In this document: positions 1,229 through 33,412 of the stretch, in pieces
How positions within the stretch are numbered: position 1 is the stretch's first letter
Layout: each line of letters begins with the position of its first letter
Assembly (NCBI GenBank): GCA_030590165.1
Contig: JAUUZA010000002.1
Span: forward strand, 1-55,466
Direction: 5' to 3'
Source: Candidatus Altarchaeota archaeon
GTDB taxonomy: Archaea > SpSt-1190
DNA length: 55,466 nucleotides
Made by a program: the position numbers and the translations under genes
Notes under the pieces: model-generated
Databases searched by the model: none
Told to the model about the DNA's origin: nothing
The model's input: the letters and a program-made list of their open reading frames with translations, nothing else

Positions 1229-1414
1229 ATGTTGAACTGGTTTAAAATGGTCGACGACGAAAATTATGGTGACGAAGACGACGAAGATTGGGAACAAAAA
1301 AGTTTTTTAGAAGGAATGGAAGACGCTGAGGAAGAGTCCGAAAGCAAGGAAAAAGACCCATTTACTAAACATCTTGAGGACTCTGAAGAAGAATTAGAAG
1401 ACTTTTCTAAGTAA
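1229..1414 (+). CDS. small highly acidic hypothetical protein
   Basis: 61 residues from ATG at 1229, or 55 from ATG at 1247 (MVDDENYGDED...). More than half of the residues are Asp, Glu or Ser, so it is probably disordered and strongly negative. It has no enzyme motif. It could act as an acidic partner for basic proteins or simply be a low-complexity protein. TATA-like sequence just upstream is compatible with its own short-leader promoter. Confidence 0.5.
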   Translation: MLNWFKMVDDENYGDEDDEDWEQKSFLEGMEDAEEESESKEKDPFTKHLEDSEEELEDFSK

Positions 1415-1451
1415 TGAGCTATCCATATAAATTCTTATTTTATTTTTATTT

Positions 1452-1513
1452 AAACCGATGATGACAGTGGCTTGACTCTGATTGTGTGATGACAAGGAGG
1501 TGATCACTGAGGT
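1452..1513 (+). ncRNA. box C/D sRNA, D guide complementary to 16S rRNA 3' end
   Basis: All four boxes are seen in order and spacing: box C ATGATGA (1458-1464), D' CTGA (1478-1481), C' GTGATGA (1486-1492) and D CTGA (1507-1510). ACC (1454-1456) can pair with GGT (1511-1513) to close the kink-turn. The D guide (1493-1506) contains AAGGAGGTGATC, complementary to GAUCACCUCCUU at the 3' end of 16S rRNA. The D+5 rule points at the C of GGAUC, about C1533 in E. coli numbering. The D' guide (1465-1477) complements AGUCAAGCCACUG; I do not recognise its target. A TATA-like CATATAAATT at ~1425-1434 lies at a plausible distance. The RNA ends just before the convergent smc stop codon. Confidence 0.88.
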
Positions 1514-1514
1514 C

Positions 1515-4500
1515 TTATTTTTCTTTCTTTGTTCCAATCCAGCTTTCTGCTTCTTTCAGAACTTTTTCTTTTGGAAGGCTGATTAATTTACTTCTACCTT
1601 TATGCATATAAACACCTATAATTTGGTCAGATTCGCGAACTACAACATCATTATGAGTTATTATTATGATTTGTGTCGTTTTACTCATTCTCTTTAACAT
1701 TAAAACAAATTTTTCACTATTGGTTTTATCTAAGGCAGCTTCAACTTCATCAAAGATATAGAAAGGAGAGGGTTTTACTTCTTGAATTGCGAAAATAAAA
1801 GCAATTGCAGCAAGAGTTTTTTGACCCCCTGAAAGAGATTCTGATGGAAGTTTTCTTCCTTGTATGAAGGTAATTATGTGGACTCCAGATTCAAAGGGGT
1901 CGTCTCCATCAATTTCAAGATTGCTTTCACCATCAATTATTTCAGAAAAGATTTTTGAGAAATTTTTATTTATTTTATTGAAAGTTTCCATGAATACTTT
2001 AGTTTTTTGTGAATCAATTTCATTCATTAATTTAAGAATTGCATCTTTTTCTTGTCTCAATTTGTTTAATTTATCGCTTATGTCTTTTACTAAATTATTA
2101 ATGTTTTCAAAATCATTTGATGCCCTGAAATTTAAATCACCTAACTTTTCCAGTTCATGAATAACTTCTTGAAGTATCTCTTTTGGATTTTCTATTATTT
2201 CAAGTTCTTTCTGGTTTGATTGTTTGATTGAATTTAATTCTATTTTAATGTTTTTTATGCGTTCATCTAAGATTGTTCTCTCGGCTTTTGATTGAAATAT
2301 TTGAGAATTTGATGTTTGGATGAAAGTCTCAACTTCAGTTTTTTTTACTAAATCATTTTTTAAAAGACGGTCTAATTCGCCAACTTTTTGCTGATAAGAT
2401 TTTATTTTTATCTTAATTTTATTATCATTTCCTTCATCTGATTTCATTAATTTTCTTTTTGTGTTTATTTCTTCAAGTAAAGTTTTTCTAAGCTTTTCAT
2501 AATTTAAAAGTTCGGGTTCTAAAAGATTTTTCAAAATATCTTCATTAGATTTTATTTCAGAATTGAGTCTAAGAGTTTCGGTTTCAAGAGAAAATACTTT
2601 TGAAGAAATTTCCTCAAGTCGTTTTTCTTCTAGAATTTTAGGTTCTTTAATTTCGCCAAGTTTTAGAATTCTTGTGTTTAGGATTTCTATTTTTTCATTA
2701 AGTTTTTTAAAATCTTCATTCCGTTCAATTATTTCATTTTTTATCTTTTTTAAGGAATCTTGAAGTGAGGCAATTTGATATGAATCAAATTTTTGATTAA
2801 GTCTTGCTTCAATTCGAAACTTTTCATTTTTTTGTTTTTCAATTTGTTGTTCTATTTTTTTAATTGAAGTTTTTAGTATTTGTAATTTTGAATTTCGTTC
2901 ACTCTCGTTAGTAAATTCATAGGAAGTTATTGTTCCAAGTGATTGTCCTATTTTTGAAATTTTTTTCAATTCACTTAGATTGAAATCATCAGGGAGTATA
3001 AAAGCCCAACCCTCATTTAAATCAGTTTTAATAGTCTCGAGTTTGTTTTTTGATGCAATTATGCTGAAAGCAAAAGGCATAATTTCTTTAGGGTTGTCAA
3101 CAAGCTCACCAAGTAATTTAAATCCTTTGTTTTTTAATTTTCTGACCCCTGCTGGTAAACTTGACGAGTAAATAATTTCCTGTTCTTGTTTTCGTAAAGT
3201 TTTAAATTTGATTGAAGTTGTTTTCAAATTTGAGTCAATCTCTTTTAATTTCGTTTCCCTTTCTTTTTGGTCTTTTAGAAATTTCTTTTTTTCAGTTTCA
3301 AGAGAAAGTTTACGTTTTTCTTGTTCTTCTTTTTTCTTTTTTAATTCAAAATTAATTTGTTCGCTTGCGTTTTTTTCTAAAGAAAGTTCTTTTAGTTGAA
3401 GAATTAATTTTTCTTTTCTTGTTTTAAGTTTAAGATATTCTTCTTGTTTTCGTTCATAATCTTGTTTAGCTTTTGAAACTAAGGTAGTTAATTTATCTCT
3501 GTATTTTTTATATTCCTGAATTTTTTTACTAATTGAAATCCGTCTATTTCCCTTGTCAATCAATTCTTGTTTGACTTCTTTTTTTCTTCGTGACATTCCC
3601 TCAATTTGTGATTCAATTGAAGATAGTCGATTTTGAGTAGTTTCAATTTCTTTAAAATTCCTCGTTTTTTCTTCTTCAATTCTTTTTAGATTAAAATTAA
3701 GACTTTCAAGTTTTGTTATTATTTCAACTTTTTGTTTTAGTCCACGTTTTTCCATTAAAGCATTAATTTCTGTTAAATCCTTGGTTTTATTGAGAATTGT
3801 GCCTTCTAACTCTTTAATTTTTTCTCCTTTTTTTTCTTTTTCTTCTTGAAAAGTTTGAGAGGTAATATTCAATTTTTCAATACGTTTAAGAAGTAAACTA
3901 TATCGCGCTCTTTCTTCGAGTGATTTGAGGTGATAAAATTGTTCAACTTTCTTTTTTTCTTCTTTTAATCTCGTAAAAACACGCATTCGTTCTCCATGAA
4001 CTGCTTCAACTTTTTGAATTTTTGTTTCAACATTTTCTAAATCAGTTAACGCACGATGTTTCTTTTTTTCATAAAGTTCAATGCCGGCTATAACTTCGAT
4101 TAGTGAACGACGCTCTCGAGGATTCATATTTATAAAACGAGTAATGTCTCCTTGTCTTACAATATTGTGACTGTCTGGGAAAATATTAATTGATTCAAGG
4201 GTGTCAATAATATTAAGTCTCGTTGAACGTTTTTCATTTAGTCTATATATGCTTGTACCATCTGTAGAAAGTTGTCTCCCTAATTTAAGGTTTCCTGTTT
4301 CAGAAATATTAGTTGGAACTTTTATTTTAAGGGTTATTTCAGCATTAGTTGATTTTTTTGTTTTACCTAGGTGGAGTAAATTTCCTGCACTTTTTGCTCT
4401 TAATGATGAGAAACTTAAACTGCCCATTACAAAACTTATGGAATCGAGAACATTACTTTTTCCTGAACCATTAGGTCCAACGATTGCTGTTATTCCTGGT

Positions 4501-4580
4501 GAAAAGAGTAAGGAAGTAAGTTTTGAAAAAGATTTAAAACCTTTTACAGACAATTTTTCAAGTTTTGAAGGATTAACCAT
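1515..4580 (-). CDS. smc: chromosome segregation ATPase SMC
   Basis: 1021 residues, shorter than the usual ~1150-1200. Walker A GPNGSGKS is at ~35-42. Two long coiled-coil arms flank a hinge at ~470-540 (KLLGELVDNPKEI...). The C-terminal head has the signature LSGGQ at ~916 and Walker B FYIFDEVEAALD at ~935-946, followed by TTQIIIITHN. SMC dimers organise and segregate chromosomes, normally with kleisin ScpA and ScpB; neither is recognisable next door. The gene is last in a minus-strand run starting at ~6475, 10 bases after the preceding small gene. The shorter arms suggest a compact SMC. Confidence 0.97.
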   Translation of the reverse strand: MVNPSKLEKLSVKGFKSFSKLTSLLFSPGITAIVGPNGSGKSNVLDSISFVMGSLSFSSLRAKSAGNLLHLGKTKKSTNAEITLKIKVPTNISETGNLKLGRQLSTDGTSIYRLNEKRSTRLNIIDTLESINIFPDSHNIVRQGDITRFINMNPRERRSLIEVIAGIELYEKKKHRALTDLENVETKIQKVEAVHGERMRVFTRLKEEKKKVEQFYHLKSLEERARYSLLLKRIEKLNITSQTFQEEKEKKGEKIKELEGTILNKTKDLTEINALMEKRGLKQKVEIITKLESLNFNLKRIEEEKTRNFKEIETTQNRLSSIESQIEGMSRRKKEVKQELIDKGNRRISISKKIQEYKKYRDKLTTLVSKAKQDYERKQEEYLKLKTRKEKLILQLKELSLEKNASEQINFELKKKKEEQEKRKLSLETEKKKFLKDQKERETKLKEIDSNLKTTSIKFKTLRKQEQEIIYSSSLPAGVRKLKNKGFKLLGELVDNPKEIMPFAFSIIASKNKLETIKTDLNEGWAFILPDDFNLSELKKISKIGQSLGTITSYEFTNESERNSKLQILKTSIKKIEQQIEKQKNEKFRIEARLNQKFDSYQIASLQDSLKKIKNEIIERNEDFKKLNEKIEILNTRILKLGEIKEPKILEEKRLEEISSKVFSLETETLRLNSEIKSNEDILKNLLEPELLNYEKLRKTLLEEINTKRKLMKSDEGNDNKIKIKIKSYQQKVGELDRLLKNDLVKKTEVETFIQTSNSQIFQSKAERTILDERIKNIKIELNSIKQSNQKELEIIENPKEILQEVIHELEKLGDLNFRASNDFENINNLVKDISDKLNKLRQEKDAILKLMNEIDSQKTKVFMETFNKINKNFSKIFSEIIDGESNLEIDGDDPFESGVHIITFIQGRKLPSESLSGGQKTLAAIAFIFAIQEVKPSPFYIFDEVEAALDKTNSEKFVLMLKRMSKTTQIIIITHNDVVVRESDQIIGVYMHKGRSKLISLPKEKVLKEAESWIGTKKEK

Positions 4581-14942: not shown

Positions 14943-15470
14943 TTAAAGGTTTTCCACTGAAGCAAGCCTTCTTTCAAGGTATTTATAAACGTTAGCGTGC
15001 GTTGCGCCTTTTAGTAGTTTTTCTAACACTTCTCTGAGTATTTGAGACCTCATGGGGTCACCTATTGCCCCTACTTTTTCTGAAGTAATTAAAATCCTAA
15101 GTTGAAGTTTATTTTCAAGAAAAGTTTTAACTCTACCCCGTTCTCCGATTATTCGTCCAAAAATTCGTTTTCTTTGTGATTCTGGAACTGCAGCGTCAAT
15201 ATCAAAAATAGTTATTTGTGTATTTTCTTCTAAAAGTTCAAATGCTTGATCTTTTGGAAATCCGAAGCCGATTGCTTTAATAACATCTTTTGTTTTTAAA
15301 ATGTTTAAGCTCTCGCCAAGGATAGTAACAACGCCATCTTTAATAATTAATTTAACATTAGCTTGTTTTTCAATTGCTTTTTTTACACTTCCACCTTTTC
15401 CGACTAAATTTCCTATGCGGTTTTCCGGTATACTAATTATTTCTTCCACTTTTATTTCCTCTTTAATCAT
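14943..15470 (-). CDS. KH-domain RNA-binding protein (Pno1/Dim2-like)
   Basis: 175 residues with two KH modules. The first has ENRIGNLVGKGGSVKKAIE (GxxG loop GKGG). The second has KRIFGRIIGERGRVKTFLE, followed by the Pno1-type ending LLKGATHANVYKYLERR. Dim2/Pno1 acts at the 3' end of pre-16S rRNA during small-subunit assembly. It lies next to the RIO kinase, a ribosome-assembly partner, and its ATG follows the kinase stop by one base or less. Confidence 0.92.
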   Translation of the reverse strand: MIKEEIKVEEIISIPENRIGNLVGKGGSVKKAIEKQANVKLIIKDGVVTILGESLNILKTKDVIKAIGFGFPKDQAFELLEENTQITIFDIDAAVPESQRKRIFGRIIGERGRVKTFLENKLQLRILITSEKVGAIGDPMRSQILREVLEKLLKGATHANVYKYLERRLASVENL

Positions 15471-16172
15471 CTATAATTCTTTCTGAATATATTCTTTAAT
15501 TTCTTTAGGATTGGTTTCAATCAATTTTGAAAAGAAATTACAAATATTTTGGACATCTCTTTCCAAATAAGTATTAGCAAGTGGGTGACGTAAATCTACT
15601 GATTGAGCAACATCAATTATGACATGTTTATTTTTATAAAAAAGAATATTATATTCACTAAGATCAGCGTGAACTAATTTAGCAATTTGATACATTTTTC
15701 GTATGTCTTCAATAATTTCATGGAATGTTGTTTCAGGATTTTTTAATTTAACCTCTTTGAGTTGGGGTGCTGCTATTTTCTCACCAATAAACTCCATTAC
15801 AAGAACATTTTTCCTAAATGCGAAGGGTTTGGGACAGCTAATTCCGGCCCTAAACATTCTATTAAGATTTCCAAATTCTTTTTTTACCCAAACACGAAGG
15901 AGTGCTCTTTGATTCCCACCTATATGCCAAAATCTTGGGTCTCCCTTAATATATTCTTTAAGTGATTCAAATGCTGTTGTTTCAGCTTTATAGATTTTAA
16001 CTGCTAATTTATGGTCATTACTTGCACTAAATACTCTGGCTTCTTTTCCATCGGCTATTGGTCCACCAAATTCCCGAAAGACACCCCTATTAAATAAATC
16101 ATAGATTGATAGAAGGGTTTGTTTGTCAAACACTTTTTCAAGAATTTTTCTATCCACAAAAGTAAGGAACAA
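15471..16172 (-). CDS. RIO-family serine kinase/ATPase (Rio1-like)
   Basis: 233 residues. Nucleotide loop GPIADGKEARVFSA, catalytic loop KLVHADLSEYNILFY and metal-binding IIDVAQSVDLRHP identify a Rio1-type kinase. It contains the Rio insert DPRFWHIGG. Starts are TTG at 16172 or GTG at 16154 (MDRKILEKVF). Rio proteins release assembly factors from the pre-40S/30S subunit. It is first in the rio-KH-top6B operon. Confidence 0.95.
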   Translation of the reverse strand: MFLTFVDRKILEKVFDKQTLLSIYDLFNRGVFREFGGPIADGKEARVFSASNDHKLAVKIYKAETTAFESLKEYIKGDPRFWHIGGNQRALLRVWVKKEFGNLNRMFRAGISCPKPFAFRKNVLVMEFIGEKIAAPQLKEVKLKNPETTFHEIIEDIRKMYQIAKLVHADLSEYNILFYKNKHVIIDVAQSVDLRHPLANTYLERDVQNICNFFSKLIETNPKEIKEYIQKEL

Positions 16173-32992: not shown

Positions 32993-33361
32993 TTAATCCG
33001 CCTTCTTTAAAGCAGCTAATTTCTTAGTTAAATCATTAAGAGCGGCTTTTCCGTCTCCAACATCCATTACAGCTACGCTAGAACATCCGACACCAAGTCC
33101 GGCTGCAGCTCCAAGCTCTTTTTTTGTTGGAACAAAAGCATAAACAATACTTTTTTCATCAGCTAAAATTGGTAGATGCATAACCACTTCTTTAGGATCT
33201 ACATCATTTGCAATTGCAACTAACTTGGCTTTTCCGCGTTCAATAGCCTTAGTAGTCTCATTTGTTCCTTTCTTAATTTTTCCAGTCGTCCTTGCTTTCT
33301 CTATGATTTGAAGGACCTTCTCCACAAGTTCTGCGGGAACCTCGAATTTTCCGTTACTCAT
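32993..33361 (-). CDS. rpl7ae: ribosomal protein L7Ae, kink-turn binder
   Basis: 122 residues from ATG at 33361 (MSNGKFEVPAELVEKVL). It has KKGTNETTKAIERGKAKLV, ANDVDPKEVVMHLPILADEK and GAAAGLGVGCSSVAVMD. L7Ae is both a 50S protein and the kink-turn-binding core of box C/D and H/ACA RNPs, relevant to the guide RNAs at 1452 and 37084. Confidence 0.97.
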   Translation of the reverse strand: MSNGKFEVPAELVEKVLQIIEKARTTGKIKKGTNETTKAIERGKAKLVAIANDVDPKEVVMHLPILADEKSIVYAFVPTKKELGAAAGLGVGCSSVAVMDVGDGKAALNDLTKKLAALKKAD

Positions 33362-33412
33362 TGGTTTCACCTAAACCATGTGTCAATCCAAGTTTTATAA
33401 GCTTTTTCAAGT

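Follow-up and report, generated by a model that had tools for sequence, protein, structure and literature searches.

The ribosome reads mRNA start signals with the anti-Shine-Dalgarno (anti-SD) tail of its 16S rRNA, and a small RNA gene carrying a guide against this tail raises the question of what such an RNA does there, and at which stage in the life of the ribosome. The locus considered here lies in a stretch of 55,466 nucleotides from Candidatus Altarchaeota archaeon SpSt-1190, hereafter the window, in which an initial annotation had described a box C/D sRNA and matched its D guide to the anti-SD tail. Our reading, to which we assign a probability of roughly 0.85, is that the locus is a gene dedicated to a double-guide box C/D sRNA of the archaeal kind, which directs 2′-O-methylation and links helix 44 (h44) and the 3′ tail in 16S maturation.

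An intergenic sRNA gene with two guides

Direct reading of the locus bore out the annotated canonical box C/D sRNA, with its four boxes, two guides and closing stem:

1426 to 1432, forward strand: TATA-like element TATAAAT, a candidate promoter, starting 29 nt 5′ of the closing stem
1452 to 1513 (ends approximate), forward strand: box C/D sRNA gene of 62 bases, with four boxes, two guides, a closing stem and orthologs in 32 other genomes
1458 to 1464, forward strand: box C, ATGATGA, by direct sequence reading
1465 to 1477, forward strand: D′ guide CAGTGGCTTGACT, 13 nt, pairing with GTCAAGCCAC in 16S helix 44; D′+5 is A1408
1478 to 1481, forward strand: box D′, CTGA, by direct sequence reading
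1486 to 1492, forward strand: box C′, GTGATGA, by direct sequence reading
1493 to 1506, forward strand: D guide CAAGGAGGTGATCA, 14 nt, with a 12-nt complement of the 16S tail GATCACCTCCTT; D+5 is C1533
1507 to 1510, forward strand: box D, CTGA, by direct sequence reading
1515 to 1529, forward strand: T-rich stretch TTATTTTTCTTTCTT, a candidate terminator, overlapping the 3′ end of smc on the opposite strand

The order of boxes C and C′ (RUGAUGA) and D and D′ (CUGA), guides of approximately 9–14 nt and a short D′-C′ spacer (here the 4-nt TTGT) are those of an archaeal box C/D sRNA. The closing stem is short (CC at 1455-1456 with GG at 1511-1512); beside boxes C and D this terminal stem reads CC/GG in the window and GCC/GGC in relatives, and its 2–3 bp would permit a k-turn. 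The gene is flanked by a small acidic ORF (1229-1414, forward strand) and the end of smc (1515-4580, reverse strand, PF02463), so that it is intergenic, 3′ of smc and not within a host gene, with no tRNA or rRNA at the locus. An Rfam scan of the window returned two tRNAs and no snoRNA family. The four-box motif occurs only once in the 55 kb of the window, in this sRNA; in 200 dinucleotide shuffles its strict form never appeared, its relaxed form appeared 0.01 times per shuffle, and the 12-mer AAGGAGGTGATC of the D guide appeared 0.005 times per shuffle. The initial annotation had overlooked both the second guide, with its target at A1408, and the wide distribution of the sRNA described below.

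Pairing of both guides with 16S rRNA

The source MAG (87.6% complete) was searched twice for its own 16S and none was detectable, so pairing was tested on the full-length 16S of the relative G001, with the 3′ tail CTGGATCACCTCCTTTGTC and the h44 start CCGCCCGTCAAGCCACTTAAG; E. coli numbers were assigned manually, with conserved motifs as the guide. On this molecule, the 12-mer of the D guide is the exact complement of the tail (duplex of -21.7 kcal/mol), as the initial annotation had claimed, the D′ guide finds its target in the GUCAAGCCAC / GTCAAGCCAC region of helix 44 (duplex of -20.2 kcal/mol), and the N+5 base is Watson-Crick paired for both. Of the guide at 1493-1506, 12 nt pair; as a correction to the annotation, position 1 of the guide (A1506) stands unpaired opposite G1529.

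Methylation by archaeal C/D RNPs falls on the target base paired with the guide nucleotide five positions upstream of box D or D′ (PMC4644070). Applied to the two duplexes, this N+5 rule points to C1533 for the D guide, two bases 5′ of the anti-SD core CCUCC (the first base of which is C1535), and to A1408 for the D′ guide, a position for which a C/D guide has also been predicted in both S. acidocaldarius and N. equitans (PMC4644070).

Standalone orthologs in the same phylum

Orthologs were sought by DNA search, followed by profile searches, and were found in G001, G002, G004, G005 and G006 (with the window, six of the seven family genomes) and in the class relative G007. None was found in the family genome G003 (72% complete) or the class relative G008, and G009 gave a weak partial match only. 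In all five genomes of the neighbourhood count, which covers the window, G001, G002, G005 and G006, the sRNA lies 3′ of smc. All seven standalone orthologs have a TATA-like box starting 25–32 nt 5′ of the stem; a clear T-run 3′ of the sRNA is not kept in every ortholog.

These sequences agree in the spacing at their 3′ end, where in 7/7 cases GGAGGTG is followed by four variable bases (atca, atat, atcc, aaat, atac, ataa or atct) and then by box D, which is CTGA in six and CAGA in one. As the bases of this gap vary and its length is constant, distance is kept and sequence is not, and the constant four-base gap between GGTG and box D fixes the register at C1533 in all seven. The C1533 register given by the initial annotation was confirmed, and the search among relatives found boxes, guide and register alike kept in the family.

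Two observations concern individual genomes. Firstly, the D′-C′ spacer is longer in G005 and G006 (L105 and L104), with a clear short hairpin (CCCCGTTTACGGGG) in G005. Secondly, the 16S of G005, at a contig end (L051), reads CCGCCCATCAAGCC, with A for G at position 1405, which could be an assembly error.

Intron-borne copies in a second archaeal phylum

Profile searches (R1, built from the first five sequences, and R2, built from 18) revealed the same double guide in a second archaeal phylum as well, where 26 genomes have it, giving 33 genomes in total; weak partial profile matches (L112, L113, L115, L118-L122 and L124) were left out of these counts. The copies of the second phylum are housed in other genes: 14 of the 26 lie in the intron of a tRNA with an anticodon loop starting CUUGA, which we read as being of tRNA-Ser(UGA) type, and the remaining 12 lie inside the 16S gene. 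For the tRNA hosts, ten loci were scanned with the Rfam tRNA model, which extends across the insert in seven (L097, L102, L134, L135, L136, L141 and L144); L125, L127 and L128 fell under its threshold and, with the remaining tRNA loci, were assigned by flanking motifs. At L004, ARAGORN reported no tRNA and the Rfam tRNA model matches, with a 68-nt insert. For the 16S hosts, inserts occur at four places, approximately E. coli 1493, 1501, 1513 and 1520, with the h44 target on one side and the tail target on the other in every case. The match of the archaeal SSU model in G464 runs end to end, from 1 to 1478 across 1607 bases, with the sRNA within, and the 16S exons match the uninterrupted 16S of G309 and G472, two genomes of the same family whose copy of the RNA sits in a tRNA and whose 16S has no insert there. 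The intron-borne copies thus sit within tRNA or 16S genes that are intact once the insert is removed, and splicing is predicted.

Across the 33 genomes, the D′ register falls on A1408 in 29 and on A1409 in four, and in G478 a change in the h44 target is matched by one in the D′ guide (CGTCAAACC with GGTTTGAC). At the other end of the RNA, box D in the second phylum is CCGA, TTGA, TCGA or similar and stands two bases past GGTG, which places D+5 at C1535. Boxes C and D are often degenerate in the intron-borne orthologs (ATGTGGA, CCGA, TTGA), so that methylation of the tail is less certain there than pairing; in f95 the D guide pairs over 8 nt only (-15.4 kcal/mol). Single-base errors in MAGs are possible, yet would not yield a pattern that spans 33 genomes.

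One of the 16S hosts, G417, has a second 16S intron with an ORF bearing a LAGLIDADG domain (L142:861-1454; PF14528, E 9.8e-12), located at the ~1501 site, 5′ of the sRNA-carrying intron.

Anti-SD guides with different partners

A pattern of TGATGA, 0–5 nt, GGAGGTGA, 1–3 nt and CTGA was scanned across 394 archaeal genomes and matched eight places in seven genomes, all of them C/D RNAs when read by eye; the reversed control matched none. Three places belong to the window's family (G000, G001 and G004), one each to G130, G145 and G298, and two to G183. Their registers are C1535 in three cases and C1533 in five, and A1534 in none. In the four further lineages (G130, G145, G298 and G183), the anti-SD guide is accompanied by a partner other than the A1408 guide. 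That of G145 (L149, with its own 16S in L156) combines a D guide that fits C1535 with a D′ guide that fits C1402 (CACACTGCCCGTCAAG), a position that carries m4Cm1402 in bacteria. That anti-SD guides recur in several lineages, and with differing partner guides, points to a selected function.

Some arrangements depart from the single-gene form. G183 has two anti-SD C/D RNAs (L150 and L152), of which one has the C1533 register and the other that of C1535, and the first of the pair (L150) stands in a tandem array of seemingly three C/D RNAs. Family f101 (L114, L116, L117 and L148) uses the anti-SD guide as its D′ guide, with a second guide that is partly conserved (..CTTAT before CTGA). Separately, three mimics of the D guide were rejected: L008 is CBS-like coding sequence (VMTKEVITA), L067 is coding in a moaB-like frame (VVRKEVIPD), and L081 reads as coding sequence. 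Bacterial matches from a pattern scan of genome contigs (L072-L076, L078 and L079) were set aside as coincidence on translation or reading.

Machinery and assembly-factor genes

The initial annotation had also named assembly factors and a C/D core protein among the products of the window, and all three genes were found:

14943 to 15470, reverse strand: Pno1-like KH protein (PF22891)
15471 to 16172, reverse strand: Rio1 (PF01163)
32993 to 33370, reverse strand: L7Ae/L30e-family protein, a candidate k-turn-binding core protein (PF01248, E 6e-27)

The third product is assigned to the L7Ae/L30e family as a whole and is a candidate core protein only. The genes for fibrillarin and Nop5 adjoin one another elsewhere in the source genome, which therefore encodes fibrillarin, Nop5 and an L7Ae-family protein. 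The Pno1 and Rio1 genes lie ~13 kb from the sRNA gene, and their position does not support the functional link that the annotation had drawn.

Proposed function and alternatives

Box anatomy, two complementarities, a fixed register, conservation and machinery genes are all observed, and suggest the following route. The sRNA would be transcribed and would form an RNP with L7Ae, Nop5 and fibrillarin; this RNP would pair with two segments of pre-16S rRNA, namely the 5′ strand of helix 44 and the 3′ tail, the D′ guide directing 2′-O-methylation of A1408 and the D guide that of C1533. As the h44 strand would be unavailable in mature 30S, pre-16S is where the step should fall. While bound, the sRNA may also join the h44 strand to the 3′ tail and cover the anti-SD, by analogy with rRNA-chaperone proposals for double-guide sRNAs; the initial annotation had suggested that such a cover may signal that 16S maturation is finished or postpone mRNA binding. 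Several points weigh against this reading: the source assembly lacks its own 16S, boxes C and D of the intron-borne orthologs are often degenerate, the D guide of f95 pairs over 8 nt only, the D+5 base differs between the phyla (C1533 against C1535), and the D′ register is shifted by one in four genomes.

A more ambitious version, which we consider possible but doubtful, is that the C/D RNP ties the maturation of the decoding site (A1408) to the methylation and covering of the anti-SD tail, serving as a maturation checkpoint. In relatives where an intron of the 16S target itself encodes the RNA, it could work in cis on the exons at either side, with the anti-SD freed only around splicing.

It is improbable that the tail escapes methylation altogether, the D guide serving mainly to mask the anti-SD or to chaperone the 3′ domain, with A1408 alone, or neither site, methylated. 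The invariant part of the RNA is indeed the anti-SD complement, whereas the D+5 base varies by phylum; the terminal boxes are weak in intron-borne forms; and chaperone roles have been proposed for double-guide sRNAs (PMC4644070). Against this, box D of the standalone forms is nearly uniform (a single CAGA among the CTGAs) and stands at an invariant distance, and registers that, among the pattern matches, fall on C1533 or C1535 and never on A1534 fit methylation better than mere pairing. It is very improbable indeed that the RNP shows a Shine-Dalgarno-like sequence to mature 30S, binding it and regulating translation in trans; the D guide does form a perfect extended SD sequence, but its partner guide is equally conserved and addresses a strand of h44 that mature 30S keeps base-paired, and 12 genomes encode the RNA inside the very precursor of 16S. 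That a C/D-like string has arisen here by chance around an SD-like sequence, or that the locus is a coincidence of coding sequence such as those seen at L008, L067 and L081, is refuted by conservation in 33 genomes, alongside an intergenic position, the lack of a start codon at SD distance and a count of 0/200 in shuffles.

Relation to known systems and wider relatives

The double-guide methylation sRNA proposed here shares with archaeal rRNA-methylating C/D sRNAs (PMC4644070, PMC7994747) the box consensus, spacing, two guides and N+5 rule, and these likewise include RNAs with two 16S targets roughly 100 nt apart; a D guide against the anti-SD tail, a feature of the window sRNA, is not mentioned in the texts consulted. 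The chaperone-type sRNAs sR15 and sR17 of N. equitans also have two guides bridging sequence-distant 16S segments, but target both strands of one helix, whereas the window sRNA would join an h44 strand with the 3′ tail (PMC4644070). Fourteen of the relatives carry the RNA in a tRNA intron, an arrangement known from the haloarchaeal tRNA-Trp intron C/D RNA and the N. equitans tRNA-Met intron RNA (PMC7994747, PMC3491384). The tRNA-Trp intron RNA guides modification of its own tRNA, whereas the tRNA-intron form of the second phylum has 16S guides; that phylum also has a 16S-intron form, and the window copy, unlike the tRNA-Trp and tRNA-Met intron RNAs, lies outside introns. A search of openly accessible papers, excluding the site tables of the pan-archaeal survey, yielded no guide to the 16S 3′ tail and no C/D RNA in a 16S intron, so that novelty of the site is provisional: the kind of molecule is already known, and the anti-SD-tail site is provisionally new.

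Should the guide methylate C1533 or C1535 and cover the tail in assembly, it would constitute a new layer of control on archaeal translation initiation. Relatives in which introns of the target itself carry the guide would offer a natural system for studying both cis-acting rRNA modification and the movement of C/D RNAs among host genes.

In other families of the second phylum (L109, L123, L145, L146 and L147), the A1408 D′ guide occurs, mostly in tRNA-like introns, with a different second guide. These RNAs have a conserved TTCGGCGG-like stretch between D′ and C′, the GGCGG of which could provide extra pairing with CCGCC just upstream in 16S.
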